In this document: piece after piece, positions 2,169 to 15,979 of the stretch
How the letters are laid out: each line of letters starts with the position of its first letter
Position numbering within the stretch: position 1 is the first letter of the stretch
Origin: a virus
Length of the DNA stretch: 24,948 nt
Strand: one strand, 5' to 3'
IMG/VR virus record: IMGVR_UViG_3300045950_000112
Location: 1 to 24,948 of that record
Made by a program: the position numbers and the translations under genes
Notes under the pieces: generated by a model
Told to the model about the DNA's origin: nothing
The model's database searches: none
The model's input: only the letters and a program-made list of their open reading frames with translations

Positions 2169-2185
2169 CTTGCTTCCCCCCTGTC

Positions 2186-3025
2186 TTACTTGATTTCTCC
2201 GGTGCCGACAACCTTCTGGATCAGGCTCACTTCCGGCTGCGGCCTGGCGACCATCTTCGTCAGCACCAAAGACACCTGGCCTTTGCGCCAGGCATCGGCC
2301 TGCAGATCCGCCCTGGGCGTCACTGCCGTCATATAGTCCTTGGCCTCGGCGTCAATCGGGATCTTGACCGCCCCCGTTAAATCCTGACTGATCCGCAACA
2401 CCGCCTGCAGTTGACCGTTCGGCGTGAGCCCCACCAAATGGATGGCCACGTGCTTCCGCAGCTCGTAGGCAGCACGGCTCTTATCTTCGGCCTGGATATC
2501 CGTCACCCGGATTAGCACCGCTGGTCTGATGTAACCCAGGGGCCAACCGTTCAGGTAGACATTCCATCCCGGCATAAAGCCTTGAATCCACCGCGACAGC
2601 GCCTGCAGCCAGGGATCATCCTGCACAGTCTCCGGAACATCCACAGGCTGCAATGCCAGCACCGCAAAGCGCAGCGGCCTGGTCAGCGCGTCCCAGTCGT
2701 CGTCCACGAAGTCGGGGGACGTGGGGCCTAAGTAATTGCACGTAAACACCTGGCCGGTTTCCGGGTCGCCGATGAGCTGCTTGTCCAGCGCCGCCACTAC
2801 GGAATTGACCAGGACATCCAGTCCCGTAAGGCTGGTCCGCAAAACATAGGGGTATATCTCAAACACCCGGCGCCAGCCGGACCAGGGCGACTCCTCGGCG
2901 TCCACGCCCTGGCGGATCACCAGATACGGCTTTTCAGTATCCTTGTCGGCGGCGTGGGGTTCAAACGCCCGGCCGTCCAGGGCCGGAATTTGGCTGATCA
3001 GCTTTTCGCGCAGCGCATTCCTCAA
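2186..3025 (-). CDS. Two-domain tail terminator/completion-like protein
   Basis: A 279-residue protein beginning at a TTG (3025) with GGGAGGG seven bases upstream. Residues about 1-130 resemble the DUF3168/tail-terminator type: an N-terminal helix (RNALREKLISQI), PYLVIRQGVD, a Trp-rich strand and a late hydrophobic strand. Residues about 140-270 look like a second copy of the same alpha/beta layout (WNVYLNGWPLGYIRPAVLIRV, then a helix and strands ending VSLVLTKMV). Tail terminators cap the tail tube and join it to the head connector; the location between a gp10-like connector gene and the sheath fits that job. The two-domain form is unusual. The role is moderately certain, the duplication is inference. 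Confidence 0.65.
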   Translation of the reverse strand: MRNALREKLISQIPALDGRAFEPHAADKDTEKPYLVIRQGVDAEESPWSGWRRVFEIYPYVLRTSLTGLDVLVNSVVAALDKQLIGDPETGQVFTCNYLGPTSPDFVDDDWDALTRPLRFAVLALQPVDVPETVQDDPWLQALSRWIQGFMPGWNVYLNGWPLGYIRPAVLIRVTDIQAEDKSRAAYELRKHVAIHLVGLTPNGQLQAVLRISQDLTGAVKIPIDAEAKDYMTAVTPRADLQADAWRKGQVSLVLTKMVARPQPEVSLIQKVVGTGEIK

Positions 3026-3046
3026 GGCCGAACCCTCCCGGTACAG

Positions 3047-3379
3047 TTAACTCCATAGATCATTGAGCGTTTTTTTGATCTCGCCCAGGTGGACGTCCAG
3101 CGTGGGTAGAATAATCGCGTTCTTGCCGCCGTGAGCGATTTCCAGCCAGATACCGTACTCTACGCCGTGGCTGAGGAAGAGGACCACTTTGTTGTCGTCC
3201 GGCTGCTCAACACCGGCGTGCAGAGCCTGCCGGGCGTGACCGGTTCGGTCCCGCCATTTGGCGTGCCGCTTGGCGTGGGACTCCAAGGTCCCGGCCCAGG
3301 TTTGCACCAGCATCGCCGTGGCCGCTTTTTGTCGCTCAATGTGCTTCAGCGCTCCGTCTCCGAAGACCATCGGCATCAC
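3047..3379 (-). CDS. HK97 gp10-like neck/head-tail connector protein
   Basis: A 110-residue protein with the compact layout of the HK97 gp10 family: an N-terminal helix rich in Ala and Gln followed by WAGTLESHAK, a basic RDRTGHARQALHAGVE segment, a strand (KVVLFLSHGVEYGIWLE) and the characteristic 'AHGGKNAIILPTLD' motif near residue 82. These proteins sit at the neck between capsid and tail. The start is uncertain: GTG 3379, ATG 3376 or ATG 3370 (the last has GGGTGA at good spacing); all overlap or abut the upstream stop at 3376. It lies within a tightly packed set of connector genes. Confidence 0.82.
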   Translation of the reverse strand: MMPMVFGDGALKHIERQKAATAMLVQTWAGTLESHAKRHAKWRDRTGHARQALHAGVEQPDDNKVVLFLSHGVEYGIWLEIAHGGKNAIILPTLDVHLGEIKKTLNDLWS

Positions 3380-3552
3380 CCGTCCCGCAGCAGATTGTTC
3401 TCCTTGAGGACCGTGTAGAGCCCGACAATTCTGATCACCAGGTTGGCATTATCGGCTTCACCAACGCGATCCCTGCGCTCCTTGTTAACAAGAGCCAGAC
3501 GCTCTACCCGGTAGGGGAACGGCCCCACCTTGAGAGTCTCCGGAATCTTCAT
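3376..3552 (-). CDS. Short protein homologous to the N-terminus of the early metallopeptidase-like protein
   Basis: A 58-residue frame starting at an ATG (3552) that overlaps the upstream stop by one base (TGATG) and ending just inside the next gene. The first 40 residues align by eye with the protein at 23929-24222: MKIPETLKVGPFPYRVERLALVNK here versus MKIPQHVRIGGHLFQVSIVEIVNK there, and both continue with an Asn followed by IRI. The HExxH catalytic segment that follows in the other protein is absent; instead the chain ends TVLKENNLLRDG. It is either a trimmed domain reused in the neck region or a decaying remnant. Function unknown. Confidence 0.7.
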   Translation of the reverse strand: MKIPETLKVGPFPYRVERLALVNKERRDRVGEADNANLVIRIVGLYTVLKENNLLRDG

Positions 3553-3938
3553 CAACTCACCCTTTCCAGGTCGGCCTGGTAGCCGACCACAACGCCGTCC
3601 ACGACCTGCGGGTAGACGGCCCGGACGAGGAACGTGCCTAGCCCCGGGGCCTCGAATTTGTCCGTGACGGCGGGGCCGGCCTTGAGATCGGCCGTGTGGT
3701 CCGCCAATAGGCCGTAAACCGTATCCGTTTCTTTCTTTCCGGCCACGCTGGAGACATCTTGCTGGCCGGCAGGACCGCCTTGCATGAACACGCGCACCAT
3801 CAGGGGGCCGATAGTGGAGACCCACTCCACGAACCCGCCGCCGGACCGGACCTTTTCGGTCCGTTTTATGACGATCACAGTCGGGTTTTGCGCGATGGAC
3901 CACCTGATGTGCTTCTTCCGGGCCGCTACCGGATCCAT
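3552..3938 (-). CDS. Head-tail joining (head closure-like) protein
   Basis: A 128-residue protein starting at ATG 3938, seven bases after GGAGG; its start overlaps the preceding stop (TGATGG). The N-terminus is a helix (DPVAARKKHIRWSIAQNP) followed by a beta-rich body with repeated strands (TVIVIKRTEK, PLMVRVFMQG, GTFLVRAVYPQVVDGVVVGYQADLERV). This small beta-barrel layout and the place between the gp6-like connector and gp10-like neck genes match head-closure or stopper proteins. I cannot name a precise family from sequence alone. Its stop overlaps the start of the next small gene by one base. Confidence 0.68.
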   Translation of the reverse strand: MDPVAARKKHIRWSIAQNPTVIVIKRTEKVRSGGGFVEWVSTIGPLMVRVFMQGGPAGQQDVSSVAGKKETDTVYGLLADHTADLKAGPAVTDKFEAPGLGTFLVRAVYPQVVDGVVVGYQADLERVS

Positions 3939-4273
3939 CACAGCACCTCCGGCGGCCTCACGCTGATGATAACCCCGCCTGAAACTCCCGCCGCCCGGGC
4001 CATTTCGGCGTATCTTTCCGACATCTTGAGTGCGTGTTCGACCTGGTCCTTGAGCTTGGTCACGTCGTAGGATTCATTGCCGACCTTGTAGCTCTCAATC
4101 TGTCCCTGATAGAGTCCGGCCTTGATCGTCCAGGCCAGTGACGCCGCCAGGTAGAGGTTCTGCTTGTCATTCAACAAGGACTCCAATTCGGCGTCGGTGA
4201 AGTGGGTGTCCTCTTCAACGCCGCCGGGCGGGATGACCTCGTTGATCAGCTTGCGCAACGGTGTTACGTCCAT
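3938..4273 (-). CDS. Head-tail connector protein (gp6/YqbG-like)
   Basis: A 111-residue mostly helical protein starting at ATG 4273 with AAGGGGG about ten bases upstream. The frame is open to 4411, but the extra N-terminus is low-complexity Pro/Gly/Ser from a GC-rich spacer and is rejected. Visible features: MDVTPLRKLINE, a loop, FTDAELESLLNDK, then a long helix with AASLAWTIKAGLYQGQIESYKVGNESYDVTKL, typical of the small helical connector proteins that bind under the portal and continue the DNA channel. The stop overlaps the next start by one base. Confidence 0.75.
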   Translation of the reverse strand: MDVTPLRKLINEVIPPGGVEEDTHFTDAELESLLNDKQNLYLAASLAWTIKAGLYQGQIESYKVGNESYDVTKLKDQVEHALKMSERYAEMARAAGVSGGVIISVRPPEVL

Positions 4274-4456
4274 TTCTATCCAGCCCCCTTCAGGCCCCTT
4301 CCCCGGCGCCGGCCCCCATGGCGTCGCCGACGCTCGACGCTTGGGGAGGGTAGTTGCGACCGTCCCCTTCCCGGCGCCGGGGGAGAGGAGGGAGTGGGAG
4401 GAAGACCCCACCCCCTACTCGAACTTAATGATTCTGATGTGTTGTGAGAAAAACGG
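4274..4456 (-). other. GC-rich structured spacer with repeated CCGGCGCCGG palindromes
   Basis: This 183-base gap breaks an otherwise gapless operon. It contains two near-identical units, CCCCTTCCCCGGCGCCGG at 4295-4312 and CCCCTTCCCGGCGCCGG at 4364-4380, each containing the palindrome CCGGCGCCGG. Between them GCGTCG (4321-4326) and CGACGC (4335-4340) form a short hairpin. No convincing gene, U-tract terminator or promoter is visible. It may be a dispersed intergenic repeat or an mRNA structure that separates capsid expression from the connector genes. Confidence 0.55.
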
Positions 4457-5491
4457 TTACTGCAGGGACAGTTCCTGCACGTTCTCGCCGACCGCGGCGA
4501 ACACGCCCCGGTAGGCGTAGCCCACGATCTGGGCTTCCACCAGCCGGGCCAGGTCGCCCCGGGCGGCCTCAAGCCGGAGATCCTGCTTGAGCAACGCCTT
4601 GAAGCCTCTCTCGGGCCTGATCAGATACGCCTTGTTTTCCGGTACCCCCGGATAGGTGTGCGCCTTCTTGCCGACGGTTACTTCCCAGCCGTCGTAGTAG
4701 ACCGCGGCGCTGATGCCGCTGATGGCCGGATACTTCGTGCCCGCGATCTGGTGTCCGCCCTCCAGGGCCATCTGGATGTCGGCCTCGTTGGCCGAGTTGG
4801 CCAGGAGCACCGTGCCCTTGCGCTTCTTCTTGGCCGCATCTTTCTTCGCCGCCTGGATCGTCTTCCAAACGCCGACCCAGGCAGGATCTTCGGCCGCGCC
4901 GGCGTAGGCCGTCTTGTTCGCGGCGGGATAGGTGAAGGCGAAGATGGGGTAGAGGTGGATGTGGTTCACCAGCGCGTTGTATGCCTCACCGATGGATTTA
5001 TTGAGCATCTCGACCGAGAATGACTGATTGAAGTCTTTCATGAACTTCGTGTACTCAAAACCGGCGGAGTAAGGCAGAATCCTGGCGGACGGCCCTTCAT
5101 CGGCGTACAGCTTGCCGAATTTGACTTCTTCGCCCTCCATATGTTCGGTGAAGACACACGCCCCGCCGAGCGCCCACTTGGCGTCCACGACGGGCGGAAG
5201 GTTCTTGTCCTCGATTATGTCGTAGATCGGACGATACAGGACCGGCACCTTTTCGCGGCCCAGCTCCACATCCAGCACGGCTTTGCCCACCAGATCCTTA
5301 ATGCTCTCAATGGAGCCCAAGGTCAGCAATTCGCCAATGGGCCTCGCCAGCTCGAACGTCTCCATCTCACCGTTGACGATCCGCTTGGTGACCTGGTATT
5401 CCTTGCCGTCCACAAGGAAAGACACCGGCACCTCGATAGTGCCCGTCCTGCGTTTTTCACGCAGTGTCTCGATACTGATTACTTGAACCAT
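4457..5491 (-). CDS. Major capsid protein
   Basis: A 344-residue protein starting at ATG 5491 after AAGGAGG. Its size, the place between the capsid cement and connector genes, and the fold pattern fit an HK97-fold capsid protein: an N-terminal arm, a long helix region around FMKDFNQSFSVEMLNKSIGEAYN, a middle helix rich in Lys (WKTIQAAKKDAAKKKRKG), LLANSANEADI, and a C-terminal strand/helix end LARLVEAQIVGYAYRGVFAAV. No pro-arm cleavage site can be assigned by eye. It is the most expressed gene in the late operon by expectation, and is followed by a structured spacer rather than a direct overlap. Confidence 0.85.
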   Translation of the reverse strand: MVQVISIETLREKRRTGTIEVPVSFLVDGKEYQVTKRIVNGEMETFELARPIGELLTLGSIESIKDLVGKAVLDVELGREKVPVLYRPIYDIIEDKNLPPVVDAKWALGGACVFTEHMEGEEVKFGKLYADEGPSARILPYSAGFEYTKFMKDFNQSFSVEMLNKSIGEAYNALVNHIHLYPIFAFTYPAANKTAYAGAAEDPAWVGVWKTIQAAKKDAAKKKRKGTVLLANSANEADIQMALEGGHQIAGTKYPAISGISAAVYYDGWEVTVGKKAHTYPGVPENKAYLIRPERGFKALLKQDLRLEAARGDLARLVEAQIVGYAYRGVFAAVGENVQELSLQ

Positions 5492-5507
5492 CGACTACTC
5501 AGCCTCC

Positions 5508-6026
5508 TTACGATGCAATGATGCCGGCTGTCCGGAGCTTGGCCAGCAGCGCATTGAAATCACCAACAATGCCCGCCACATCCCCCGCCGTGCTGTTGGC
5601 CTGCGCCGCAGCCTGCCGGAGCGCGCCGAGCAGCTGATCCGCAAGCTTGAACCGGATTACATTGTTGGCGTCTTTGGCCAACGTCACCCGGCCCGCGTAA
5701 CGATTGCCGGCCGCCGCCTGGGTAAAGCGGTTGTTGGCGGCGTCCCAGTAGATGTCCGCGCCGCCCGCCATGGCATCGGTGGCCAGGATCTGGTCCGTCT
5801 CGTACTCCGCCTGTTCGATGTTCAGCACCAGCTCGGCCGTTTCTCCCGCGCCGGTGGTAACGCTGCGCATCGCCGCGCCCAGAAACCCGCCGAGCAGGTA
5901 GAACTTACCTGCAGAAATAGTGGTGTTTTGCGGCACGGTCACTTGCACCGCTCTACCGTTCGATACCTTGGGGTCGGTGCTCTGGTGCACTGTGGTCGGT
6001 ACCGGTTGACCCTGGTACATCTGCAT
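5508..6026 (-). CDS. Capsid decoration/cement protein, DUF2190-like
   Basis: A 172-residue protein from ATG 6026 (AAAGGA upstream; ATG 6020 is also possible). Residues 20-130 show the beta-rich DUF2190 layout: GRAVQVTVPQNTTISAGKFYLLGGFLGAA, then ETAELVLNIEQAEYETD and GADIYWDAANNRFTQAAAGN followed by YAGRVTLA. This family (lambda gpD-type fold in known members) binds the capsid surface and stabilises it. The last 35 residues (AGDVAGIVGDFNALLAKLRTAG) form an added helix also seen in Firmicutes relatives. It lies directly between scaffold and capsid genes, the normal cement position. Confidence 0.82.
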   Translation of the reverse strand: MQMYQGQPVPTTVHQSTDPKVSNGRAVQVTVPQNTTISAGKFYLLGGFLGAAMRSVTTGAGETAELVLNIEQAEYETDQILATDAMAGGADIYWDAANNRFTQAAAGNRYAGRVTLAKDANNVIRFKLADQLLGALRQAAAQANSTAGDVAGIVGDFNALLAKLRTAGIIAS

Positions 6027-6039
6027 TCACGTCCTTTCG

Positions 6040-6564
6040 TTAAATGGCGGCCCGCTTTACGCGCACGTTGGTGGAACCGCCTTTGTCGCCGGCGGCGCGC
6101 ACGGCGCCGGCGACCATTGCCGGCGTGTCGGTGTGCAGTCGGCTCAGGGCCTCCTTTACCGACGCTTCGGCCAGCAGCGCGTCGATCTCGCCAACGATCT
6201 GTTCCTTGGTCTTGCCCGCCGGCTGCAGCATCTTCCGGATCAACGCCTGAGCCATCTCGCCGGCGACTTTTTCCTTAAGCACACCATCGACCAACTCCTG
6301 GTGACTGCGCTCCCGGTCTTTGTCCATAGCCGCCTTAGCCTCCTTGGCCGCCTGTACGACGCCCATCTCGCCGGTCACGCCCAGGGCTTCGGCCACGGCC
6401 TGCAGCGCTTTCTCCGCGCCGGCCTTGCGCTCCACCCACTTGCCGTCAATCGCCCCGGCCACCTGCTCCGGCGTCCAGCCCATCTCCCCGGCCACCTGGG
6501 CCAGGGTCACATCACCGCTCTGCAGCAAGCCCTTCAGTTGCTGCACCAACTCTTTCCAACCCAT
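6040..6564 (-). CDS. Nested in-frame scaffolding protein (Mu gpZ-like)
   Basis: An internal ATG at 6564 in the same frame as the protease gives a 174-residue protein, MGWKELVQQLKGLLQ to the shared stop. GAAGGAGG lies seven bases upstream of this ATG, as strong as any gene start in the window, although it sits inside the protease coding sequence (Glu-Gly-Gly-Lys). The product is almost entirely helical, charged and Ala-rich with repeated LxxxL patterns, as expected for a capsid scaffold. The arrangement copies the Mu I/Z and lambda C/Nu3 nested design. Confidence 0.72.
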   Translation of the reverse strand: MGWKELVQQLKGLLQSGDVTLAQVAGEMGWTPEQVAGAIDGKWVERKAGAEKALQAVAEALGVTGEMGVVQAAKEAKAAMDKDRERSHQELVDGVLKEKVAGEMAQALIRKMLQPAGKTKEQIVGEIDALLAEASVKEALSRLHTDTPAMVAGAVRAAGDKGGSTNVRVKRAAI

Positions 6565-7113
6565 CGTTTTGCCTCCTTCAATCTCACCAGTGGCCACTAT
6601 TCTGGTTTGCATCCCCGCCCGGTCCAGAGGCGTCCAGTCAATTGAAAGCGCCTCATAGTCAATAACCTCGGCCTCTCCGCCCGCCGTCCGCAGCTTGGGA
6701 TAGCCGAAGATGGACACCTGCTTAACCCGTCCGGTGCGTATCCAGCGTTTGAGATCCACCGCCGCCTGGTCAACCACGCCCCGAAAATACGCTTTGCCGT
6801 TCTGCATCTTGGCTCCGACCCAATGGGTCACAACAGCCGGGAACTGGGTGGGCACATCGTCGGCCTTCTGGTGCCCTAAAAACCCGTTCAGCGTCCGCTC
6901 CTGGACCCGCCGGACGATGGCTTCCAGCGCCGGCATCTTGTAGTTCCAACCTCGCTTGCTCTTGCCCGGGGCAATCTCGACCACGACCTCCAGGGGGTCC
7001 TGGTCGCCCGCTTTAAGCGCCGACAGATCCACGCCCGGCGCCGCCGGCACATCCTCGGGCCGCATTTCGCCCGAAACAGCGGCCGGCAGCCATGTCATTT
7101 CTCCCACAAGCAA
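6040..7113 (-). CDS. Prohead protease with C-terminal scaffold (Mu I/Z-like)
   Basis: A 357-residue head maturation protease. Start is taken as TTG 7113 (TTG 7116 is equally possible) because AAGGGAGGTG lies just upstream; the frame is open to 7158. Residues 40-170 form the protease region: an E-rich strand, GFLGHQ (His81), and QVSIFGYPK (Ser134), matching the His/Ser arrangement of herpes-type phage proteases, then DYEALSIDWTPLDRAG. Residues 184-357 are Ala/Glu/Lys-rich helices typical of a scaffold. In Mu the I gene encodes the protease and the nested Z gene the scaffold. Preceded by a likely promoter and phased repeat array. Confidence 0.85.
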   Translation of the reverse strand: MLVGEMTWLPAAVSGEMRPEDVPAAPGVDLSALKAGDQDPLEVVVEIAPGKSKRGWNYKMPALEAIVRRVQERTLNGFLGHQKADDVPTQFPAVVTHWVGAKMQNGKAYFRGVVDQAAVDLKRWIRTGRVKQVSIFGYPKLRTAGGEAEVIDYEALSIDWTPLDRAGMQTRIVATGEIEGGKTMGWKELVQQLKGLLQSGDVTLAQVAGEMGWTPEQVAGAIDGKWVERKAGAEKALQAVAEALGVTGEMGVVQAAKEAKAAMDKDRERSHQELVDGVLKEKVAGEMAQALIRKMLQPAGKTKEQIVGEIDALLAEASVKEALSRLHTDTPAMVAGAVRAAGDKGGSTNVRVKRAAI

Positions 7114-7136
7114 CAAATCACACCTCCCTTCGGGGC

Positions 7137-7165
7137 ATAATGAAAAACGTCCTAACACCGTTCAA
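7137..7165 (-). promoter_or_regulatory. Candidate sigma-A promoter for the capsid operon (PI-like)
   Basis: On the minus strand TTGAAC (7165-7160) and CATTAT (7142-7137) are separated by exactly 17 bases, each matching 4 of 6 consensus positions. Transcription would begin near 7130, just before the ribosome site of the protease gene. A phased repeat array ends 11 bases upstream. In Mu the C-dependent promoter PI occupies this same slot before gene I. A weak core next to upstream repeats suggests an activated promoter; this is inference. Confidence 0.5.
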
Positions 7166-7175
7166 CACCGCTCCG

Positions 7176-7246
7176 ACGTTAACGGGGTCAGCCCCCGGCG
7201 TTAACATAGCGTTAATACCGCGTTACATGGGCGTTATTTTGCGTTA
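7176..7246 (-). repeat. Helically phased TAACGC repeat array
   Basis: On the plus strand GCGTTA begins at 7198, 7209, 7220, 7231 and 7241, and ACGTTA begins at 7176. Steps are therefore 22, 11, 11, 11 and 10 bases, so all six copies face the same side of the helix. Intervening bases are unrelated, so this is not a simple tandem duplication. The array ends 11 bases upstream of the candidate capsid-operon -35. It looks like a multi-site protein-binding or DNA-wrapping element. Confidence 0.72.
7178..7205 (-). other. Imperfect inverted repeat within the phased array
   Basis: GTTAACGGGG and CCCCGGCGTTAAC (plus strand) face each other across a short loop, pairing GTTAACG and GGG with a two-base bulge. 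Each arm ends in a GTTAAC palindrome. No U-tract follows on either strand, so it is more likely a DNA-binding dyad or promoter-proximal structure than a terminator. Confidence 0.45.
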
Positions 7247-7295
7247 CTAGATTTGGGTACGTGGGTGGGTAGGGGTGTGCCCGGCTACGAGGCTT

Positions 7296-7316
7296 GCAGG
7301 GCCGTATAGGCCCTGC
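7296..7316. other. 8-bp GC-rich hairpin downstream of the immunity gene
   Basis: GCAGGGCC (7296-7303) pairs perfectly with GGCCCTGC (7309-7316) across a five-base loop. It lies 19 bases after the DUF4926-like gene, so it could stabilise or end the upstream transcript. There is no U-tract, so it is not a classical intrinsic terminator. Confidence 0.45.
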
Positions 7317-7334
7317 TGCCAAATCATGGGTGCT

Positions 7335-7556
7335 TTATGGCTTACCGGCGGAGCCTATGCTGTGAACCAGCTCTAAATCGTCGGGACCGAACTCCTCCAG
7401 GACCAGGGTTTCTCCTTCCTGGTTGCTGAATTCCACTGTGTAGGCTTCATCCGGATGCCGAAACGCCATTACCACCGTTCCGGTGTCACCGCTTTTCAGT
7501 CCGTGCTCCGGAAAATCCCTGGTCAATCGTACCACATCAAGTTCCTCGAACTTCAT
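7335..7556 (-). CDS. DUF4926-like small protein, candidate immunity/antitoxin
   Basis: A 73-residue acidic protein matching the DUF4926 pattern: MKFEELDVVRLTRDFPEHGL, then KSGDTGTVV, a strand AYTVEFSNQEGET and a C-terminal LxPDDLEL-like end (FGPDDLELV). This SH3/KOW-like fold is typical of small proteins encoded beside toxins. The start ATG at 7556 overlaps the MuF gene stop by four bases (ATGA), so it is translationally coupled to the toxin-like head protein. The gene breaks the usual MuF-to-protease order of Mu-like phages, supporting a specialised role as immunity to the MuF C-terminal domain. The family match is good; the immunity role is inference. Confidence 0.75.
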   Translation of the reverse strand: MKFEELDVVRLTRDFPEHGLKSGDTGTVVMAFRHPDEAYTVEFSNQEGETLVLEEFGPDDLELVHSIGSAGKP

Positions 7557-8971
7557 TTCTTCACCTTCTTGGGAACGTAAGTGGTTACCAGATGGGGAAA
7601 GTCCTTATTTTCCCGAAAGATCCACGCCGTAACCACTTTAGCCGTTTTACCGCTTGGCCCCGTCAATTCCATGATTACCTCGTATTTGTCGCCATGTTTA
7701 CCTTTACCCTTGTAGACTGCGTCGTAATAGGGGAGGTTGCCCAGGATGTCCCTCTCCAAGCGCCCCGCTGTGTTCAGGTTATAACCAAGGACTTTTTCGA
7801 AAACCATCGCCTTATGTTTGCCGTCGGGATGGTTCTTATCCAGGGAATACTTCAACAGCTTCGGCGGGGCAATATAGGCCCGTTCCAGCCCCGGCAGCGG
7901 CTTTTCGGCCCATGGCCTTTCTCTGATTATACCACCCGGCGGCCCGGCGCTAAACCCTTTGTAGACATCATTATGCCAACGCTCCAGTTCGGGCTGGGCA
8001 GCCGGGTGCTGTGCCCATTCCTTGATCTTTTCGACCATTTCATCCGGCTGCGCGTGCACCGGCACCAGAAAGCTCATGGTGTTCGGGTGCGCCGGGTAAA
8101 CCGGCTCGTTGCCCGGAGCGTACACTCCCGGCCCCAGGCCGTCCTCATCGGCGGCCGCCAGTACGTCGCAGATGTCATAGATCCGATGCTGTGCCGAAAG
8201 ACAATACTTGATCCCGACGTAGGAGGGAGTGAGCCGTGCGGCGGCGATACTGGCCTGACCGAAAGCCGCCGTGGCCTCGGTGCGCGCCAGGCGCAGCGCC
8301 TCATAGCTAATATCCTTCGGCACCCGGCCCTTGAGGCGCTCCCACGCCTCGGGATAATCCCGCAGGAGCGTCCCGGCGCCGGCTTTGACGTATCGCTCCA
8401 ACATCCGGGCGGTCTTCACGGCGTCCTGGCCGATGGCCACCGATTCCTGCACAAGCCTGGTTAGTTGGGTGCCATAGTTCTCCCCGGCGCGCCAGATTCG
8501 ATCCGACACCTTTAGTCCCTTGAGGGTACGCTGCCACGCGGCTTCCACCGCCCGGGCGTTGACACGGGCGAACATGCTGTTAATGCCGCTTGCGGTCACC
8601 AGGGTGCTGCCCGCATCTTGGAAGAGAGTGGTCGTCACTCCTTTGGAGTAGGTCGTCCCGGCTTCGACCGCGCCGTGGATCTGCCGGCGCAACGCCGCAG
8701 TCAAATCGTCCGTCAGCTGGCCGGCCTCCAGCCGCAGCATCTTCTCCAGCTCTTCGAGCTGTTGTTTCCTGATGTAGCTTGAAGGGGCTTTAAGGACCAG
8801 TTTCCGTATCTCGTCGGCGACGCGGTCAGCGGACCGTGCGTAGACCTGCCTGATCTCCAGATCCTGTTTCAGGCGCAGCTCGATAAACTCCCGCCGGGCC
8901 TGCAGGAAACGCCGCTTGTACTCCTCGTTTCGGGTGGCGGCCGCGATCTGGTCGATCTCCCGCGGGCTCAT
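7553..8971 (-). CDS. MuF-type minor head protein with C-terminal toxin-like domain
   Basis: A 472-residue protein. Residues 1-210 are helical (head/portal-associated). The MuF core follows, with ALRLARTEATAAFGQASIAAAR, CLSAQHRIYDICDVLA, and YPAHPNTMSFLVPV, the Cys/His/His pattern typical of this family. MuF proteins sit inside the head and are delivered with DNA. Residues 374-472 form an extra domain (LDKNHPDGKHKAMVFEKVLGY ... YEVIMELTGPSGKTAKVVTAWIF ... HLVTTYV) that resembles DUF6883, a family seen at toxin C-termini. Overlaps the portal stop and the DUF4926 start by four bases each. The toxin call is by pattern, not test. Confidence 0.82.
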   Translation of the reverse strand: MSPREIDQIAAATRNEEYKRRFLQARREFIELRLKQDLEIRQVYARSADRVADEIRKLVLKAPSSYIRKQQLEELEKMLRLEAGQLTDDLTAALRRQIHGAVEAGTTYSKGVTTTLFQDAGSTLVTASGINSMFARVNARAVEAAWQRTLKGLKVSDRIWRAGENYGTQLTRLVQESVAIGQDAVKTARMLERYVKAGAGTLLRDYPEAWERLKGRVPKDISYEALRLARTEATAAFGQASIAAARLTPSYVGIKYCLSAQHRIYDICDVLAAADEDGLGPGVYAPGNEPVYPAHPNTMSFLVPVHAQPDEMVEKIKEWAQHPAAQPELERWHNDVYKGFSAGPPGGIIRERPWAEKPLPGLERAYIAPPKLLKYSLDKNHPDGKHKAMVFEKVLGYNLNTAGRLERDILGNLPYYDAVYKGKGKHGDKYEVIMELTGPSGKTAKVVTAWIFRENKDFPHLVTTYVPKKVKK

Positions 8972-10467
8972 TGCTTACCGCCAAGCTTGTCGATCATCGT
9001 TTTTTCATCCAGTAGACCTTCTGCGTCCTCCAACCGGGCTCTTTCGATTCGGTTCCTGATGATCCGTTCTCTTTCTCCCGGTTCATCATCCGCTTCGGAC
9101 TCATAACTGCGCATGGTGTCCACGTACCGACTGAGGAATTCGGCGGCCGCGTCATCGGAGAGGAACCCGCCCTGCACAGCGCGGTCCAAGGCGCTGGCGA
9201 CCTTCTCCAGGATCTCGGCCACCTCTTTTTCGTCGCGCGGGTCCACTTCGTTCCAGTCCAGTTCTGTGGCATAGGTTGAATAGGCTTTGCCCTCGGACTT
9301 GGCCGTCATCGCCAATACGATCCGGGCCACGAGCTGCCAAGGGTCCGCAAACTGATCGCGCTTGCGGGTTACCTTGCGCACCACGACCGGCATTTGCTCT
9401 TTGACGGATGACATAGAGCTGGGGGTATGCACACCAAAAACGAATTCCGGTGTCTCGCTGGTATCCACGATGCAGTAAAAAATCAGCTTCAGCAGGGCGA
9501 TGGTATCCCCAGTGGCGCTTTGCGCTTCCAGGAAGCCCGCATCTTCTTCGGACGAGAAGATGAGCAGTTCATGGCCGGACAGATTGATGGTGCCGCCCTT
9601 TTTCGCGAACTCCGCCGGCTCGGTGATGTTGAAATTGTTTCGCAGGAACGCGGCTACGTCTTTCAACTTCAGTTTCAGTCGAGGAGTGGAGTGCATCTTG
9701 GAGCCTTGGGCGGCGTGCAGCATCACATCATGATACAGCTTCAGAAAAGGTTCGACGGGCTCCAGCTCCGACCGGCCGAACACTGTTGTTTCGTCGCCCT
9801 CGTTCCGGAAATGGACGATGGGGATGAAGCCCCAAATGTTTTCTTCCGTTCCCGATCGCACTCCGGGGACCTGGTCACCGTCGATCTCAATGGTCCTGGC
9901 CTCGCGGGTAATCCGCTGAGTGACGGTCGCCTGTCTCTTGCTGCCGTGCTCGTCCGTCCATTTGTGCCGGGACTTTAGCACATATTCGTAAACATCGCCG
10001 GTGACCGGGTTCCGTTTGATCTCGCTGACCTGTTCCGGCGGGATGATGTGGCACACCAACCGGGTCTTCAGCTCCGGGTAAAGCTCTTTATCGGTTTCTT
10101 CCCGCGTAATCCAGACAAAGCAGTCTCCGTCACGCAGCGCATTACGGTGGGTTCTCTGCACCCGTGACCGGTTGGCGCCGAAGAATCCATCCAGCATCTT
10201 CTGGGCGTCGTCGTCCACCGAGAGGAAGCGGGGCACGCCCATGAACGCCACCAGCGTGTTGATGATGCCGCGCGCGAACCCGGCCCCCAGTTTATACTCA
10301 TCCCGGCTGTTTTCGTAAAGCTCCCGGGCCAGCTCGTAGTCCACCCGGCTGGAGTCCAGCTGGTAGACCGCATAGCCGCCGGTGGTCACCCCGAAGGGCA
10401 GGTACCCGCGCAGCCGGCTCATTTCGCCGATAGCCCGCTTGACCCGTCGTATCCAACTTCCGCGCAC
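8968..10467 (-). CDS. Portal protein
   Basis: A 499-residue protein of the size and composition of a phage portal, the dodecameric ring through which DNA enters the capsid. Start is GTG 10467 with GGTGG seven bases upstream. Visible pattern: N-terminal positive arm, a helix/loop with RDEYKLGAGFARGIINTLVAF, NALRDGDCFVWI, a wing region ending GFIPIVHFRNEGDETTVFGRS, then the long stem/crown helices (FLKLYHDVMLHAAQGSK) and 'SSMSSVKEQMPVV'. The C-terminus is acidic and helical. It follows the large terminase with a 27-base gap and overlaps the MuF gene by four bases, the conserved packaging order. Looks closer to the SPP1 gp6 type than to the DUF935 portal of Mu. Confidence 0.88.
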   Translation of the reverse strand: MRGSWIRRVKRAIGEMSRLRGYLPFGVTTGGYAVYQLDSSRVDYELARELYENSRDEYKLGAGFARGIINTLVAFMGVPRFLSVDDDAQKMLDGFFGANRSRVQRTHRNALRDGDCFVWITREETDKELYPELKTRLVCHIIPPEQVSEIKRNPVTGDVYEYVLKSRHKWTDEHGSKRQATVTQRITREARTIEIDGDQVPGVRSGTEENIWGFIPIVHFRNEGDETTVFGRSELEPVEPFLKLYHDVMLHAAQGSKMHSTPRLKLKLKDVAAFLRNNFNITEPAEFAKKGGTINLSGHELLIFSSEEDAGFLEAQSATGDTIALLKLIFYCIVDTSETPEFVFGVHTPSSMSSVKEQMPVVVRKVTRKRDQFADPWQLVARIVLAMTAKSEGKAYSTYATELDWNEVDPRDEKEVAEILEKVASALDRAVQGGFLSDDAAAEFLSRYVDTMRSYESEADDEPGERERIIRNRIERARLEDAEGLLDEKTMIDKLGGKQ

Positions 10468-10494
10468 ATTATCACCACCGCTTTACCCGCAGAT

Positions 10495-12060
10495 TTACCC
10501 GTAGATCCTGGCCCGGCGGAAGATCCCCATCAGCCCCGAATCCAGGGTGGATGCGTTCTTGCACAGGCTCCGGCAGCCCTCCAGGGCGTCCGGCCCGTCG
10601 TCGTAATCGGCCATGGGGAAATACTTGAGCTGTTCCAGCAGCCGGCGATGCCTGGGGTTGAACTTGATGTACTTGTTCTTGATATCCGGCTGCAGAGTCT
10701 GGATGCGCAGAACCTTGTCCCTGGACTGATAGACTTCTTCGATGGGCAGGTACAGCTTCTCACGGGCGCTGGCCTTGGCCAACTCTTCCTTCAAGAACCA
10801 CTGAAACTGGTTCGACTCGGAGCCGAACTTAGCATAACCCCGGCCGTAATCCCGGCGCAGCCAGCGCTCTTTCTCTAATATGTCGGCAATGATCCGGTCC
10901 GGGTGCCGCCGCTCAATATCGGCGTCCAAGACGTACATGTAGCCCGTTTGCGTGTCCAAGGCGACGGTAATGACCGCGGAAAAGTCCGATTTTTTGCTCT
11001 TGCCCAGAGACGGGTCTACAAAGCCGAAGAAGAGAAAGCCCTTGCCGAACTGCATCCCCACGGGGTTGAAGTAGTCAAACCACCCATCGTCAAAGAGGCA
11101 GTCTTCGGGGTTGATCGGTTCATTCTGCAGCTCCGAGTTGAAGCTGGCCTCGCCCTCGGACACCCGGGTCGCCATCAGGTCGTAATAACTGTTTTTCTCT
11201 TCCCAGAGCACTCTGGCGCCTTCCAACATGGCTTCACGATGCTCTTCAAAAAACCGTCGCGCATTCTCCTCACGGTCTTCGTCAAACAGGTCGGTGTAGA
11301 TCTCCTCCCACTGATCCCACAGCCCCTGGTTCTTGGCGAAGCTCAGTACCGCCTGGTATTTCCTGGTCCGGTAGGCCGGGTTCTTGAGCACTTTGGCCAG
11401 CAGGCTGTCGTAGTGCAGGAGGGTGCCGATGTAGATGATGTCCGTGTAGTCGTCGCCCGCTTTGGACACGGCCTTGTAGAACCAGTTCTCCAGCTTCTTG
11501 CGCTGCTCCGGCGTCCGGACGTTCTCGTCGTTTTCAATGTCGTCCAGGATGATCAAGTCCGGCCGCCAGTTCTTGTGCTTCCGGCCGCGGACCTTCTTGC
11601 CGGCGCCCAGGGCCTCGATCTTGATGCCGGTACTGGTCAACAGCACGTTACCCTTCCAGACCTTGCCTTCAAGTCGCCCAAAGTCCTCGATAACGCGCTC
11701 GTTTTCTTCCAGCTCTTCGCGTATGCTGGCCAGGAAGCCCTCGGCCTGTTCGCTGCTGTCCGAGATAATGAGGATATAGTGCTTGTAGCCATAGAGGATG
11801 GCGTGCAGCGTATTCTTGAACGTGAGCGTGGTGCTCTTGGCGTGCCCGCGCGGGGCGCCGACGGCTCGCCGGGTACCCGTTTCCGTGTCGATGACGCCTT
11901 CGAGCCAGATCTGATCCAGCTCCCGGTGAAATTCCGGCGACGGGCGAGAGAAGTAGTGGGGGAAATAAGCTTTGCCGAAGTAGTCCAGGTCCCGCTGCCC
12001 GCGGCGTTTTCTGTTCGAGTCGCCGCTGCGGCCTTGGACCAGGTCCTCAAGGATGCTCAT
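10495..12060 (-). CDS. terL: Terminase large subunit
   Basis: A 521-residue packaging motor. The ATPase half has a Walker A-like GAPRGHAKST (residues 68-77), a long P-loop helix, and Walker B LIILDDIE (169-176) followed by a coupling region. The nuclease half has FFGFVDPSLG (first acidic residue of an RNase H-type site), an HPDRIIADILEKE helix and a C-terminal DYDDGPDALEG motif with the final acidic residues. It packages DNA into proheads with the DUF3486-like small subunit at 13775-14353. Start ATG 12060 has a weak GGGGCGTGG upstream. Four late genes lie between the two terminase subunits, unlike the adjacent arrangement of many phages. Confidence 0.93.
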   Translation of the reverse strand: MSILEDLVQGRSGDSNRKRRGQRDLDYFGKAYFPHYFSRPSPEFHRELDQIWLEGVIDTETGTRRAVGAPRGHAKSTTLTFKNTLHAILYGYKHYILIISDSSEQAEGFLASIREELEENERVIEDFGRLEGKVWKGNVLLTSTGIKIEALGAGKKVRGRKHKNWRPDLIILDDIENDENVRTPEQRKKLENWFYKAVSKAGDDYTDIIYIGTLLHYDSLLAKVLKNPAYRTRKYQAVLSFAKNQGLWDQWEEIYTDLFDEDREENARRFFEEHREAMLEGARVLWEEKNSYYDLMATRVSEGEASFNSELQNEPINPEDCLFDDGWFDYFNPVGMQFGKGFLFFGFVDPSLGKSKKSDFSAVITVALDTQTGYMYVLDADIERRHPDRIIADILEKERWLRRDYGRGYAKFGSESNQFQWFLKEELAKASAREKLYLPIEEVYQSRDKVLRIQTLQPDIKNKYIKFNPRHRRLLEQLKYFPMADYDDGPDALEGCRSLCKNASTLDSGLMGIFRRARIYG

Positions 12061-12073
12061 GCCGCCACGCCCC

Positions 12074-12265
12074 TTATCTCCCTACCGCCTTGCCGTCCAC
12101 ATAACTCTCGCCGACTATGAAGGCGATGACCCCGCCGGTGATGGCGAAGTACGCCTCCCGGTCGACCGGGGCTCCCAGGATTTCGTTTAGCCCCACAAAT
12201 CCGAAGTTCGCCAGGGCTGCAAGGAACTTCCGGGACTTCAGCCGGTCAAAAAAGGGTCTTTGCAT
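12074..12265 (-). CDS. Small holin-like membrane protein
   Basis: A 63-residue protein with a basic N-terminus (FFDRLKSRKF) and two hydrophobic stretches, LAALANFGFVGLNEIL and AYFAITGGVIAFIVGESYV, separated by a short polar loop. This is the form of small two-helix holin or holin-like proteins seen in Firmicutes prophages, ending with the GESYVDGK motif I associate with them. It lies directly after the amidase gene (3-base gap) and before the terminase. It would form membrane lesions that let the amidase reach peptidoglycan. No experiment distinguishes it from the membrane protein on the other side of the amidase. Confidence 0.7.
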   Translation of the reverse strand: MQRPFFDRLKSRKFLAALANFGFVGLNEILGAPVDREAYFAITGGVIAFIVGESYVDGKAVGR

Positions 12266-12268
12266 AGC

Positions 12269-12910
12269 CTACACCCCCTTTGCGGGAACAATTACATCCA
12301 CCGTCTGCGTGGTCGCGTCCCAGTCGATGGTTGCCTGCGGAATCATCTCAATTACGCTCCGCAGCTGCACCCACTGGCTATCCAGCTGCATCTGGGTCCG
12401 CCCGTCCACGATCCGCGCCGGGATCTTCGTCCGCCGACCATTAAAGAGTACCGTGACGCCGGCACTGCCTGTCTCCAGCAACCCTTCCAATTCTGCCCAG
12501 GGGAACATCGACCCCGGGCAAGCCGTGACATCCACGTCTTTATGCCCGATCACCGGGATGTTGCCATATCGCCTCCGGATGTCCCCGATGAGCCAAGCCA
12601 GCGACTGCATCTGCTCCGGCGCCGGTCGCGCACTTGTAAAATCACCGGCCAGGGCGATACCGATTCCGTCAGCGTTTGCAACCGGCGCGTGGGCTCCCTG
12701 CATATGCTCGGGCCGGCCCCGCTCGATAACGCCACTGCGGCGGACCAGGTAGTGGTATCCAATCCCGGCCCACTTATTGTTCAGGTGCCACCGATGCACG
12801 GTAGCCGCCGAAACGTCCCCGGATGCGGTGTGGTGTACCACGATGCGCCGCGTGCTTGCCCGCGGGGGCAGAGCGCCATTAAATCTGATGCTCGTCTCTG
12901 TGATCTGCAC
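12269..12910 (-). CDS. N-acetylmuramoyl-L-alanine amidase (endolysin)
   Basis: A 213-residue lysin. The start is GTG 12910, chosen because GGAGG lies seven bases upstream; the frame continues to 12976 without a better site. Residues about 20-140 are an Amidase_2 domain: VVHHTASGD with zinc ligand His26 or 27, a GYHYLV strand, IGIALAGDF, and GHKDVDVTACPG with His123 and Cys131. Residues 150-213 form a beta-rich tail (VTVLFNGRR ... ARIVDGRTQM) like the copper amine oxidase N-terminal/stalk domain used for wall attachment. No signal peptide is visible, so release depends on a holin. It overlaps the upstream membrane protein gene by 32 bases. Confidence 0.9.
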   Translation of the reverse strand: MQITETSIRFNGALPPRASTRRIVVHHTASGDVSAATVHRWHLNNKWAGIGYHYLVRRSGVIERGRPEHMQGAHAPVANADGIGIALAGDFTSARPAPEQMQSLAWLIGDIRRRYGNIPVIGHKDVDVTACPGSMFPWAELEGLLETGSAGVTVLFNGRRTKIPARIVDGRTQMQLDSQWVQLRSVIEMIPQATIDWDATTQTVDVIVPAKGV

Positions 12911-13157
12911 GATAATCCCTCCTCGATTGATACGCATCCGTGCCCATCCGGGCCACCTCATGCACGAAGTAGCCACCCAGAATAATCTGGATCATCCGCC
13001 CCAACTGGTCCACCGCCCATTCTTCGCCGTATCCAAAATAACTGGCGATGATCATAGGCAGATAAACCAGCACAAAGGAGACCGCCAGACCGTCCTTAAA
13101 ACTGAACTGCCTGGGGGCGCTGAAGCGATCTTCTATTTTTTTCAGGTTCTCACCCAT
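12879..13157 (-). CDS. Membrane protein of the lysis cassette (holin candidate)
   Basis: A 92-residue protein from ATG 13157 (AAGGTGTG upstream). After a short polar N-terminus (MGENLKKIEDRF) it has two hydrophobic segments, LAVSFVLVYLPMIIASYFGY and a region around IQIILGGYFVHEVA, then a highly charged tail (SRRDYRADHRDEH). Two helices and a charged C-terminus are holin-like. Its end overlaps the amidase start by 32 bases, so the two are translationally linked. With the 63-residue protein it brackets the amidase; one may be the holin and the other a regulator. The start lies 20 bases after the long hairpin at 13178-13243. Confidence 0.7.
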   Translation of the reverse strand: MGENLKKIEDRFSAPRQFSFKDGLAVSFVLVYLPMIIASYFGYGEEWAVDQLGRMIQIILGGYFVHEVARMGTDAYQSRRDYRADHRDEHQI

Positions 13158-13177
13158 AAGCTCACACCTTGCCACAC

Positions 13178-13243
13178 AAAAGGGGCTGATTTTGGCCGCG
13201 CTACGCCATTTGGCCCTCATCGCGGCCAAAGTCAGTCCCTTTA
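13178..13243 (-). terminator. Long hairpin with U-tract after the NusG-like gene; possible switchable terminator
   Basis: The arms at 13178-13200 and 13221-13243 are complementary at 20 of 23 positions around a 20-base loop. Read on the minus strand the stem has an A-rich 5' base and ends in CCCCUUUU, a terminator-like form. The 5' arm segment TTTGGCC can alternatively pair with an inner GGCCAAA (13215-13209), giving a mutually exclusive smaller hairpin. In minus-strand RNA two internal positions are A-C mismatches, while in plus-strand RNA they are G-U pairs, so strand of action is not certain. It lies 42 bases after the NusG-like stop and just before the lysis genes. Confidence 0.65.
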
Positions 13244-13284
13244 ATATCCTCGCTCGAACTGCACCGCCGAAACAGGCGCGGTCC

Positions 13285-13782
13285 TTACTCGGACTTTTGC
13301 AACACGTTTACGCTCAACTCAATAATCTTGGGCTCGCCAAACAGTGGGATATTGACCTTCGCCCGGCCCTTCCGCCGATCCAACTTAATGATTTGGCCTT
13401 CTAAGCCCCGCAACGGTCCCGACACTATCCGGACCCCATCCCGCTCAAGCAAGGCAGTCGATACACCGATCAGTTCATCGTCCCGCACCAGGCCGAGTAC
13501 CCGATTCATCTCCGCCGGCTGCACCGGCTGCGGTTTGCCGGCGCCCAACACGCGGATTACGCCGCCAATTCCGGTGAGTGTGTAGTAGTCGTCCGGCTCC
13601 AAGGCTGTGCTTACGAACACATAGCCCGGGAAAAGACACCTGATGACCTGCCTTGTCACGCCGCGCCGCCGCTCCATCATCTGCCGGCGGGGGACCAGGG
13701 CGTGCATCCCCGCGTCCCGGACCCTGCGGCCGACCGCAACCTCCCGCGCCGTTTTGGTATGCAAGACATACCACTCAGCCAT
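13285..13782 (-). CDS. NusG paralogue, LoaP-like transcription antiterminator
   Basis: A 165-residue protein with the two NusG domains. The start ATG 13782 follows GGAGG by six bases; the longer frame to 13839 is rejected. Residues 1-98 are an NGN domain: WYVLHTKTAREVAVG, LVPRRQ, and the signature CLFPGYVFVSTAL (residues 49-61), then GGVIRVLG. Residues 114-165 are a KOW domain: GVRIVSGPLRGLEGQIIKLDRRKGRAKVNI. Such paralogues (LoaP, RfaH, TaA) ride on RNA polymerase and prevent termination at specific operons. Its place at the head of the lysis and packaging genes, followed by a long hairpin, suggests it controls late transcription. It overlaps the small terminase stop by eight bases. Confidence 0.85.
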   Translation of the reverse strand: MAEWYVLHTKTAREVAVGRRVRDAGMHALVPRRQMMERRRGVTRQVIRCLFPGYVFVSTALEPDDYYTLTGIGGVIRVLGAGKPQPVQPAEMNRVLGLVRDDELIGVSTALLERDGVRIVSGPLRGLEGQIIKLDRRKGRAKVNIPLFGEPKIIELSVNVLQKSE

Positions 13783-14353
13783 CCCTATCCTCCAAGCGGG
13801 AGACGATCTTTTCATCCAGCAGGCGGCAGATCTTCTCATGCAGATCAGGGTTGCGCTTCAGCTCCTTGGCCAGCTCATCCTTGACCTCCTGGACGGCTTG
13901 TTTGATCAGCCGGCCCTGCTCCGCCCGGAACTTCTCCTTGTGGACGATACTCCTCTGCAGGTAGACCAGGAGCCGCCCCACCTTGTCCAGGGGCATCCGG
14001 TCCCACTCATCTTCGGCTGTCGCCAGTCGCTCGGTCAGGGCATTGATCAAGATCGTCTCTGCGGCGTCCGAGGCCTCGATGTTCTGGTTCTCCTTAACAG
14101 TCTGGACCAGGAGCCGAGTCTTCTCGTATGCTTCCTTCAGCCGCCGGGCGGCCGCGTTCTTGTTCAGCGCATACCGTCCAACGCTGGATTTTGAGATCCG
14201 AAAGGCTCCATGCCCCCGTGATGTAATTTCGGCCGCGATCTGCTCGTAGGTATAGTTCACGTTGGCCAGCATCTCATCCAGCCGCGCACGTACATCTTCC
14301 GGGAGTTCGTCCACCCGGCTCTTGATTCGATGTCTCTCGCGTTCCTTGCCCAT
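13775..14353 (-). CDS. Terminase small subunit, DUF3486 / Mu gp27-like
   Basis: A 192-residue helical protein with the DUF3486 pattern: KSRVDELPEDVRARLDEML near the start, then a sequence YTYEQIAAEITSRGHGAF followed by the SKSSVGRYAL helix (residues about 54-63), then long charged helices. This family supplies the DNA-recognition subunit of terminase in Mu-like phages. Start ATG 14353 overlaps the previous stop. It ends eight bases inside the NusG-like gene. The C-terminus is acidic/basic and likely a coiled coil that binds the large subunit. Confidence 0.87.
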   Translation of the reverse strand: MGKERERHRIKSRVDELPEDVRARLDEMLANVNYTYEQIAAEITSRGHGAFRISKSSVGRYALNKNAAARRLKEAYEKTRLLVQTVKENQNIEASDAAETILINALTERLATAEDEWDRMPLDKVGRLLVYLQRSIVHKEKFRAEQGRLIKQAVQEVKDELAKELKRNPDLHEKICRLLDEKIVSRLEDRDG

Positions 14354-15251: not shown

Positions 15252-15557
15252 CTAAAGTCCTTTAAGGCTGATTGATAATGGCGAATTCTCAATAACTCTT
15301 CGGATACTGCGTTCCGACATCTCGAATTTCCGGGACAAATCATCAATGTTGTATCCATTGAACTCCGCCCTGATCCGCCGGTCACGGGCTTCTTGGACTA
15401 TGCGTGCCGGTTGCGGGAAGTAAAGCTGCCGCCCGCCGAACTCGGATGCCAGTATCAGGGTCGCTTCAAGCCCGATTAGCTCCGCCATCCGGTGATACGG
15501 CTCCGGCAGATCTTCCGTCTCAATCTCAATGTTATCCCGCTCCTGCAGCTCCCGCAT
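15252..15557 (-). CDS. mor: Mor-family middle operon transcription activator
   Basis: A 101-residue DNA-binding activator. The start ATG 15557 is chosen because AAAGGAGG lies upstream and the family domain begins here; the frame to 15665 lies within gp16. Features: LPEPYHRMAELIGLEATL, then LASEFGGRQLYFP (the dimer/beta part), an arginine-rich ARDRRIRAEFNGYNIDDL and a C-terminal HTH (LSRKFEMSERSIRRVI). In Mu, Mor dimers activate Pm, which drives the next regulator. Here the following 285 bases hold dyads and a -10 box consistent with this. Mu makes a second activator, C; no C homologue is visible here, while a NusG paralogue is. Confidence 0.88.
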   Translation of the reverse strand: MRELQERDNIEIETEDLPEPYHRMAELIGLEATLILASEFGGRQLYFPQPARIVQEARDRRIRAEFNGYNIDDLSRKFEMSERSIRRVIENSPLSISLKGL

Positions 15558-15574
15558 CGCCTCCCGCTCCTCCT

Positions 15575-15979
15575 TTAGGCTTCTTCGGCAGCGCCTTGCT
15601 CCTGGCGCTCCAAGAGCTTCTTGAGTCCCTCGATTACCCGCCATGCCTGGGCGGTCGTCAGCCACTCCAGCCGTTCCACGCCGGCGTACTTCTTCACAAA
15701 ACCTTGGACCCGCTTGGGGTTATCCGCCCAGCCCAGCGCCCGGGCCAGATCGTTGATCTTCCAGATCTGTTTCCTGCTGGCCCGTCCGGATCGCGTGCGG
15801 CCGATCCGGCGCTCAAGTTCATCGATCACCCGGATCGCCTCCGCCTTTGTGAGCTTTGACATGCTCTCCTTGCCGGCCACGTTTTGGATGATAGCCCGCC
15901 GCAGATCGTCGTCAATTCCCAGTTCCCGCGTCACCGCGAAGATCTTCTTGCGCTGCTCCGGCGTGATCGGTTCACCCAT
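15575..15979 (-). CDS. Gp16-like protein, DUF1018
   Basis: A 134-residue protein of the DUF1018/Mu gp16 family. Visible pattern: MGEPITPEQRKKIFAVTRELGIDDDLRR, then SMSKLTKAEAIRVIDELE, a basic linker GRTRSGRASRKQIWKINDLARALGW, and LEWLTTAQAWRVIEGLKKLL, two repeats of a helical unit. In Mu-like phages gp16 lies just before mor, as here. Function unknown; a nucleic-acid-related role is plausible from its basic helices. Its start overlaps the upstream gene by eight bases and it ends 17 bases before the mor ATG. Confidence 0.87.
   Translation of the reverse strand: MGEPITPEQRKKIFAVTRELGIDDDLRRAIIQNVAGKESMSKLTKAEAIRVIDELERRIGRTRSGRASRKQIWKINDLARALGWADNPKRVQGFVKKYAGVERLEWLTTAQAWRVIEGLKKLLERQEQGAAEEA

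Follow-up and report, generated by a model that had tools for sequence, protein, structure and literature searches.

The window, that is, the whole stretch of DNA analysed here (IMGVR_UViG_3300045950_000112, 24,948 bases), carries Mu-like genes on its minus strand: a Mu transposase, an AAA ATPase with a TniB match just below cut-off, a Mor/C-family activator, terS, loaP, a small ORF, an amidase, and terL. The loaP gene, encoding a LoaP-type NusG paralogue of 165 aa (13285..13782, (-)), is complete, with its ATG at 13782 and its stop codon at 13285-13287. Directly upstream lies terS for the terminase small subunit (13775..14353, (-); phrog_426, 5.8e-28). The first gene past the proposed switch is a small ORF (12879..13157, (-)), which is holin-like by position and by eye only and gave no family match in NCBIfam, Pfam, and PHROG profile searches. 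The amidase (endolysin; 12269..12976, (-); phrog_822, 8.3e-37) and terL for the terminase large subunit (10495..12060, (-); phrog_38, 3.9e-112) lie further downstream. An earlier note, made on this DNA from the letters alone, had placed a hairpin at the head of the lysis and packaging genes, a reading borne out by these assignments.

The same note took the C activator of Mu to be missing and LoaP possibly to replace it. However, a Mor/C-family late transcription activator is encoded at 15252..15665 (-) (PF08765 65.4 bits, cut-off 24.9; phrog_532 'late transcriptional activator'), and the genes are ordered as in Faecalibacterium phage Mushu. Thus, LoaP as a stand-in for a missing C is ruled out, and LoaP would act after or beside C. 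Nothing points to numerous terminators that would have to be passed: terminator-like sites in 1-13300 were not commoner than in shuffles (13, three of them on the minus strand, versus 13.6).

Searching viral contigs with a single protein yielded just one near relative, and further loci came from alignment-based searches. The phage set comprised 18 non-redundant loci after removal of near-copies (L002, L014, L035, L040) and of repeat matches of the same contigs (L012, L019, L027, L029-L033, L037, L041, L042, L061, L065, L111). From 31 matched phage records eight were used, namely the LoaP-type L004, L005, and L007, phage phi3LM21, and four housekeeping NusGs. terS is the gene before loaP in all ten phage loci tested for gene order, and terL is the large ORF after the leader in nine of them, in some with a small ORF between; the exception is L015, where the large ORF is a tail sheath gene. 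By a simple scan without shuffles, terminator-like hairpins lie between element B (see below) and the next ORF in 6 of 18 rows (L004, L005, L015, L017, L025, L028). A phage-type loaP with its leader (65.8 bits) was also seen on chromosome II of Ruminococcus bicirculans 80/3 (L142, 5995-6585), with the same motif surroundings as in the gut phage locus L007.

LoaP protein of the window

The window protein scored 152.1 bits with the NCBIfam LoaP model (cut-off 125), and LoaP was the sole NCBIfam family whose cut-off it passed; the scores for NusG (70.9, cut-off 135.7), UpxY (60.2, cut-off 100), and RfaH (42.8, cut-off 144.5) fell below. An NGN match and full-length NusG and LoaP matches agree with the earlier description of a complete NGN+KOW NusG-like gene, and the assignment to the LoaP type made there is upheld by the family score, the tree position, and a structure match. 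Among ten phage relatives scanned, five passed the LoaP cut-off (L002, L013, L015, L016, L060), and the other five (L018, L028, L034, L004, L005) scored below it with LoaP still the best family.

Phylogenetic placement had been proposed in the earlier note as a check. In a 66-row tree, the window protein lies among phage and chromosomal LoaPs, set apart by a split of 98/98 from four housekeeping NusGs and 16 other chromosomal paralogues of unassessed class. Within the LoaP half, its position is weakly resolved.

According to the available text of PMC12691694, B. velezensis LoaP requires E40, R41, and I143 for RNA recognition. The window protein has E, R, and I at the aligned positions; the four housekeeping NusGs share E40 and have V, L, V, and I at position 41. 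Among 12 phage proteins compared, E40 is found in 7, R41 in 11, and I143 in 10. The numbering was taken from the LoaP of L221, counted from its second Met, which has E40, R41, K128, and I143 as given in the parts of PMC12691694 at hand; this protein was treated as B. velezensis-like, its identity with the B. velezensis protein being an assumption. The AF2 model of window LoaP has a mean pLDDT of 89.8, with the KOW part predicted as strands. Its top PDB match is 8f5g, 'NusG-RNA complex', the chains of which took ranks 1-3 (TM by query length 0.82, 0.88, and 0.77), and which, judging from its title and sequence, would be LoaP.

Bulged UUCG hairpin after loaP

Directly after the loaP stop codon lies a bulged UUCG hairpin, element A (13256..13284, (-)), which was overlooked in the earlier note and which we propose as the LoaP-binding hairpin from a descriptor match, the fold, and covariation. 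It reads GGAC-c-GCGCC-u-GU[UUCG]GC-GGUGC-a-GUUC, with the core at 13261-13279 and the loop at 13268-13271. This form is the MFE structure both in the whole leader and in 13257-13283; for the bare 19-nt core a different pairing was preferred in the MFE fold. A UNCG scan without bulges missed the element.

By descriptor, 11 of the 18 phage loci have a bulged UNCG hairpin after loaP, with quite different stem sequences; in L005 it lies inside the end of loaP. Five further loci (L025, L007, L034, L004, L060) show one by eye, and in L015 and L020 no UNCG hairpin A was recognisable by descriptor or by eye. The same descriptor matched 4 of 80 chromosomal paralogue loci (700 nt each). Chromosomal LoaP leaders of Bacilli mostly have the form N5-9-CGW-UGU[UNCG]GCA-C-N5-9, and the window core UGUUUCGGC is identical letter for letter in several chromosomal leaders.

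Over 22 leaders, the element A stem had a covariation score of 0.618; shuffles gave 0.224, with none of 500 reaching the observed value, and sliding the stem gave 0.147 at most. Within 14 chromosomal leaders the value was 0.443 versus 0.262, and within 14 phage leaders, with the pairs of hairpin P (see below) included, 0.509 versus 0.217 (0.336 when slid by one). RNAalifold predicted no pairs on the mixed 22-row alignment. As far as sequence comparison goes, the LoaP ligand is likely the bulged UUCG hairpin A.

A third conserved block, ending ACATA and lying ~25-30 nt after the UNCG loop between A and B, appeared in alignments A5 and A6. Blocks of this type are present in many chromosomal and phage leaders; the one in the window (GAGGATATT) is weak.

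Long hairpin and its alternative structure

The long hairpin described in the earlier note 42 bases after the gene is present as an inverted repeat (13179-13200 / 13221-13242, 20 of 22 positions complementary) which begins 42 nt after loaP, ends CCCCUUUU, and is the longest of eight listed inverted repeats in the window (arms at most 120 nt apart). We propose it as terminator T, with its 5' arm at 13221..13242 (-) and its 3' arm and UUUU tract at 13178..13200 (-), from the repeat and the fold. None of 200 dinucleotide shuffles folds as well as 13158-13284, on either strand (z -3.8 minus, -5.5 plus). The two A-C mismatches which the note had pointed out in minus-strand RNA of the stem are indeed there. 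L002, a 92% relative, has two A-to-G changes in the 5' arm, which leave G-U pairs in minus-strand RNA and would give C-A in plus-strand RNA. Because these changes pair only in minus-strand RNA and the genes are on the minus strand, we take minus as the acting strand of the hairpin, on the modest evidence of two changes in one relative.

The U-tract of T is short (UUUUGUGU), and T was not listed by the terminator scan, which takes loops up to 8. In full form T was seen only in the window and L002. It encloses element B in the window, and L018 has a shorter stem of that kind by eye (GCCGGATGG/CCATCCGGC). T is more likely a terminator than a LoaP ligand. Thus, of the earlier view of the long hairpin as the element controlled by LoaP, the antitermination part stands, and the role of LoaP ligand probably does not belong to this hairpin.

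The two exclusive structures foreseen there were also recovered: hairpin P (UUUGGCC / GGCCAAA, 13209..13230, (-)) has its 5' arm in common with T, cannot form together with the T stem, and finds counterparts in relatives. We propose P as a pause hairpin. A hairpin of at least -4 kcal/mol ending at most 2 nt before TGGCN is present in 17 of the 18 phage loci, L020 being the one without, compared with 3.3 loci in shuffles, and 26.5% of places picked at random in these loci pass this criterion; the per-locus z-scores average -1.9 (20 rows, near-copies included). In chromosomal leaders, a hairpin before B is also frequent, at a more variable distance. By counting, P lies ~11-14 nt from the proposed pause, which is the distance of known pause hairpins from their pauses. 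The MFE fold contains P in a transcript ending 11 nt short of the proposed pause and lacks it in one ending 14 nt short, and the MFE fold of the whole leader contains A and T. The exclusive inner structure fits a pause hairpin directly before the ops-like motif.

ops-like element

Within the long hairpin, ~64 nt past element A, the window has GGCGTAGC (element B, 13200..13207, (-)), an ops-like motif likewise overlooked in the earlier note and, from its recurrence, a proposed pause and LoaP loading site. GGCGNAGC occurs within 260 nt of the loaP stop on the same strand in 15 of the 18 phage loci, at 29-235 nt. As L060 was found through the motif, it was excluded, leaving 14 of 17 loci against an expected 0.046 per locus, with none on the other strand; the motif had been widened from GGCG[AT]AGC to GGCGNAGC after the first loci were inspected, which makes its p-values post hoc. 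The count without L060 becomes 14 of 22 with five more distant NusG-like loci (L010, L021-L024), none of which has GGCGNAGC within 260 nt. GGCA-type variants of B are found in L017, L038, and L039. The distance from UNCG to B is 63-72 nt (64 in the window), in a scan that also lists unrelated pairs in decoy loci.

DNA mini-hairpins formed by d(GCGNAGC) are very stable. The consensus of RNA polymerase pauses is G-10 Y-1 G+1, which GG...TNTG presumably fits; the pause register in the window would be one base shorter than this spacing.

B-like sites are not confined to phages, since, among 80 chromosomal NusG-paralogue genes from several phyla, 14 also have GGCGNAGC in the 130 nt before the gene (expected 0.008 per locus, none on the other strand; the 80 loci are not dereplicated). 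The 14 are L156, L166, L167, L173, L185-L187, L189, L192, L193, L195, L198, L205, and L206. In L198, a Lachnospiraceae NusG paralogue is preceded, at 97-216 nt upstream, by four copies of GGCGAAGC in tandem units of ~37 nt, plus one GGCGGAGC.

The motif alone was tried as a marker of LoaP and rejected: when viral contigs were searched with GRATGGCGAAGCNNTGCC, only 4 of the 80 loci listed (84 stretches) had a same-strand LoaP gene, namely L060, L061, L065, and L111, of which three were contigs already in the set.

Leader models and genome searches

LoaP over its cut-off was found in 30 of 398 Bacilli genomes (E 1e-30). R1, a model built from 22 leaders including the window, gave matches of at least 28 bits, a line chosen after the scores were known and with post hoc p-values, in 24 of the 30 LoaP-positive versus 2 of the 368 other genomes, and in 15 of 21 versus 2 of 368 when nine training genomes were left out. 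At 22 bits or more, the numbers were 25 of 30 and 12 of 368.

R3, a model from 14 phage leaders with the window and L002 held out, found 13192-13287 (-) as its only match in the window (23.2 bits, E 8e-5). It also found L002 (20.7 bits) and L015 (20.4 bits), and not L020. Among the 14 chromosomal leaders, R3 ranked four (28.8 to 21.0 bits) above all 25 decoys given (best 19.0) out of 76 motif-bearing ones; of the remaining ten, four fell among the decoys and six were not among the matches listed. R2, a model from the 14 chromosomal leaders, found the whole of L025 (22.1 bits) and, of L013, the B part; it had no match in the 76 motif-bearing decoys and did not find the window leader even with filters off. 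From R2 and R3, the window leader is remote from the chromosomal leaders and linked to them via other phages. An Rfam search gave no match.

One LoaP-negative, R1-positive genome (G079) has, on contig C9 at 62377-63342, an apparently broken LoaP gene next to a well-conserved leader: two partial LoaP matches lie on opposite strands, one with an internal stop, ~350 bases from the leader. Another such genome, G210, has a LoaP match of 104.6 bits only. L303 has two divergent LoaP-type leaders in one genome (1244-1317 (-) and 1501-1608 (+)), one preceding an acyltransferase (PF00698) gene and the other an S-adenosylmethionine synthetase gene.

Discussion

In this study, we identified the protein of the window as a LoaP and observed leader elements whose order and spacing recur in its relatives, together with an association of leader and LoaP at the level of genomes. 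We consider it probable that this phage has a gene for a processive antiterminator of the LoaP type, immediately followed by a complete LoaP leader which acts as a late-gene switch. The dfn leader of B. velezensis has a UNCG hairpin, a pause, and a terminator, and LoaP opposes NusA there, as described in the available parts of PMC12691694. Since the phage elements stand in the same order, that the phage leader works like a LoaP leader is the strong claim, and loading through an ops-like DNA hairpin is the bold one.

We infer binding, pausing, termination, read-through, and the timing of the switch as follows. Transcription would begin upstream, plausibly via the Mor/C-type activator, and cross terS and loaP, after which the nascent RNA would expose hairpin A for LoaP to bind. 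About 64 nt on, P and the ops-like B would pause RNA polymerase, with GGCGTAGCGC as the candidate pause position, and LoaP tethered to A would load onto the elongation complex. Possibly, LoaP also recognises B as a mini-hairpin of the non-template DNA, in the manner of RfaH at ops. For a polymerase without LoaP, the 3' arm would be made, P would yield to T and its U-tract, and transcription would stop, with UUUU as the candidate termination site, ahead of the lysis, terL, and head genes; a polymerase loaded with LoaP would pass T into these genes.

In its fullest form, the signal would be bipartite: RNA hairpin A captures LoaP, and its NGN domain loads 63-72 nt further on, at a hairpin-stabilised pause where GGCGNAGC forms an ops-like mini-hairpin in the non-template DNA. 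Such a code would be common to NusG paralogues and used here for a phage late switch. We put this forward tentatively, as a little short of an even chance. Alternatively, A binds LoaP, and B and P only pause the polymerase, LoaP making no contact with non-template DNA. This is a real possibility, albeit well below even. In the available text of PMC12691694, binding of B. velezensis LoaP to ssDNA of the region upstream of the hairpin was only weak, and the dfn pause was helpful, not essential. In addition, some chromosomal leaders have no more than a loose form of B (GGGAAAAG, GGAGAAGG), and the ops-length form GGCGNNAGC was absent within 130 nt of the 80 chromosomal paralogue genes. However, GGCGNAGC is more constant than a bare pause would require, the free base sits at the loop position of a C-GNA-G hairpin, and ops-length loops are found in two chromosomal LoaP leaders (GGCGATAGC in L253 and GGCGGGAGC in L308).

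The mutual exclusion of P and T would also suit an attenuator independent of LoaP, with LoaP acting elsewhere, e.g., on host operons. This we regard as unlikely: the order of terS, loaP, leader, and terL recurs in diverse phages, the leader tracks LoaP in chromosomes, and R1, although its training set includes the window, gives one strong site there, at 38.8 bits versus 12.3 for the next best. More doubtful still is that T itself is the RNA bound by LoaP and A is incidental. T does adjoin the gene as the longest close inverted repeat in the window, but other phages also have bulged UNCG hairpins after loaP, the known LoaP ligand is a UNCG hairpin according to the parts of PMC12691694 available, and, by eye, a stem around B comparable to T was seen only in L018 besides L002. 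That an ordinary NusG copy and an ordinary terminator, of the sort common between phage genes, lie side by side functionally unlinked is very improbable in view of the LoaP family score, the tree, and the recurring leader.

The proposed LoaP-controlled late switch resembles the dfn/mln systems of B. velezensis in family score, fold, and RNA-recognition residues, and, compared by hairpin type, in the order of UNCG hairpin, pause, and intrinsic terminator before a long gene block. In contrast, the window system is phage-borne, between terS and the lysis and terL genes, its leader directly follows loaP, GGCGNAGC lies at the proposed pause, and a terminator-like stem is wrapped around the pause element. 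The ops hairpin has a C3:G8 pair and a loop of G4-A7 with T6 flipped out, as given in the accessible part of PMC5995543. Compared with RfaH/ops of E. coli, B keeps GGCG...AG and the same C:G pair around G-N-A, with the loop opened by G and closed by A, and shares the pause-like setting and an NGN-KOW protein. Unlike there, the phage B loop is one base shorter, RNA hairpin A is an extra element, the KOW part is predicted as strands in the AF2 model and not as an alpha-hairpin, and the protein falls below the RfaH family cut-off (42.8 versus 144.5 bits). N with nut and Q of lambda are phage-encoded antiterminators that likewise open further phage genes; these proteins are unrelated. Mushu has the Mu-like order of late activator, terS, and terL seen in the window, and its TerL is 58% identical, but its terS and terL overlap, with no loaP between and no leader match.

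LoaP is known from chromosomal gene clusters, e.g., antibiotic operons. If diverse phages carry a LoaP cassette between terS and terL, phage late-gene control would gain a mechanism based on a NusG paralogue. The leaders, when compared, also provide a second half of the LoaP site which is conserved, ops-like, and nearly constant in spacing. In the part of a 2020 paper available (PMC7593976), the recruitment of NusG paralogues encoded inside their own operons was called unknown; element B makes such recruitment testable and aids sequence-based finding of LoaP targets. If the bipartite reading is true, NusG paralogues would share sites of the GGCGNAGC type as a recruitment code, the ops of RfaH being one form of it. 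A literature search that covered few subscription papers found in print neither a phage late switch made of a LoaP cassette and its leader nor an ops-like part of the LoaP site, and as far as searched both are new.

NusG-like phage proteins per se are already known, as PHROG 6386 and as the annotated NusGs of phages phi3LM21, vB_RleM_PPF1, and MaAM05, but these annotations name no LoaP class, leader, or target. The NusG locus of Sinorhizobium phage phi3LM21 (L010, 2839-3507), which lacks GGCGNAGC within 260 nt, has its NusG-like gene shortly before terS and terL and belongs to another host group, possibly as a parallel case.
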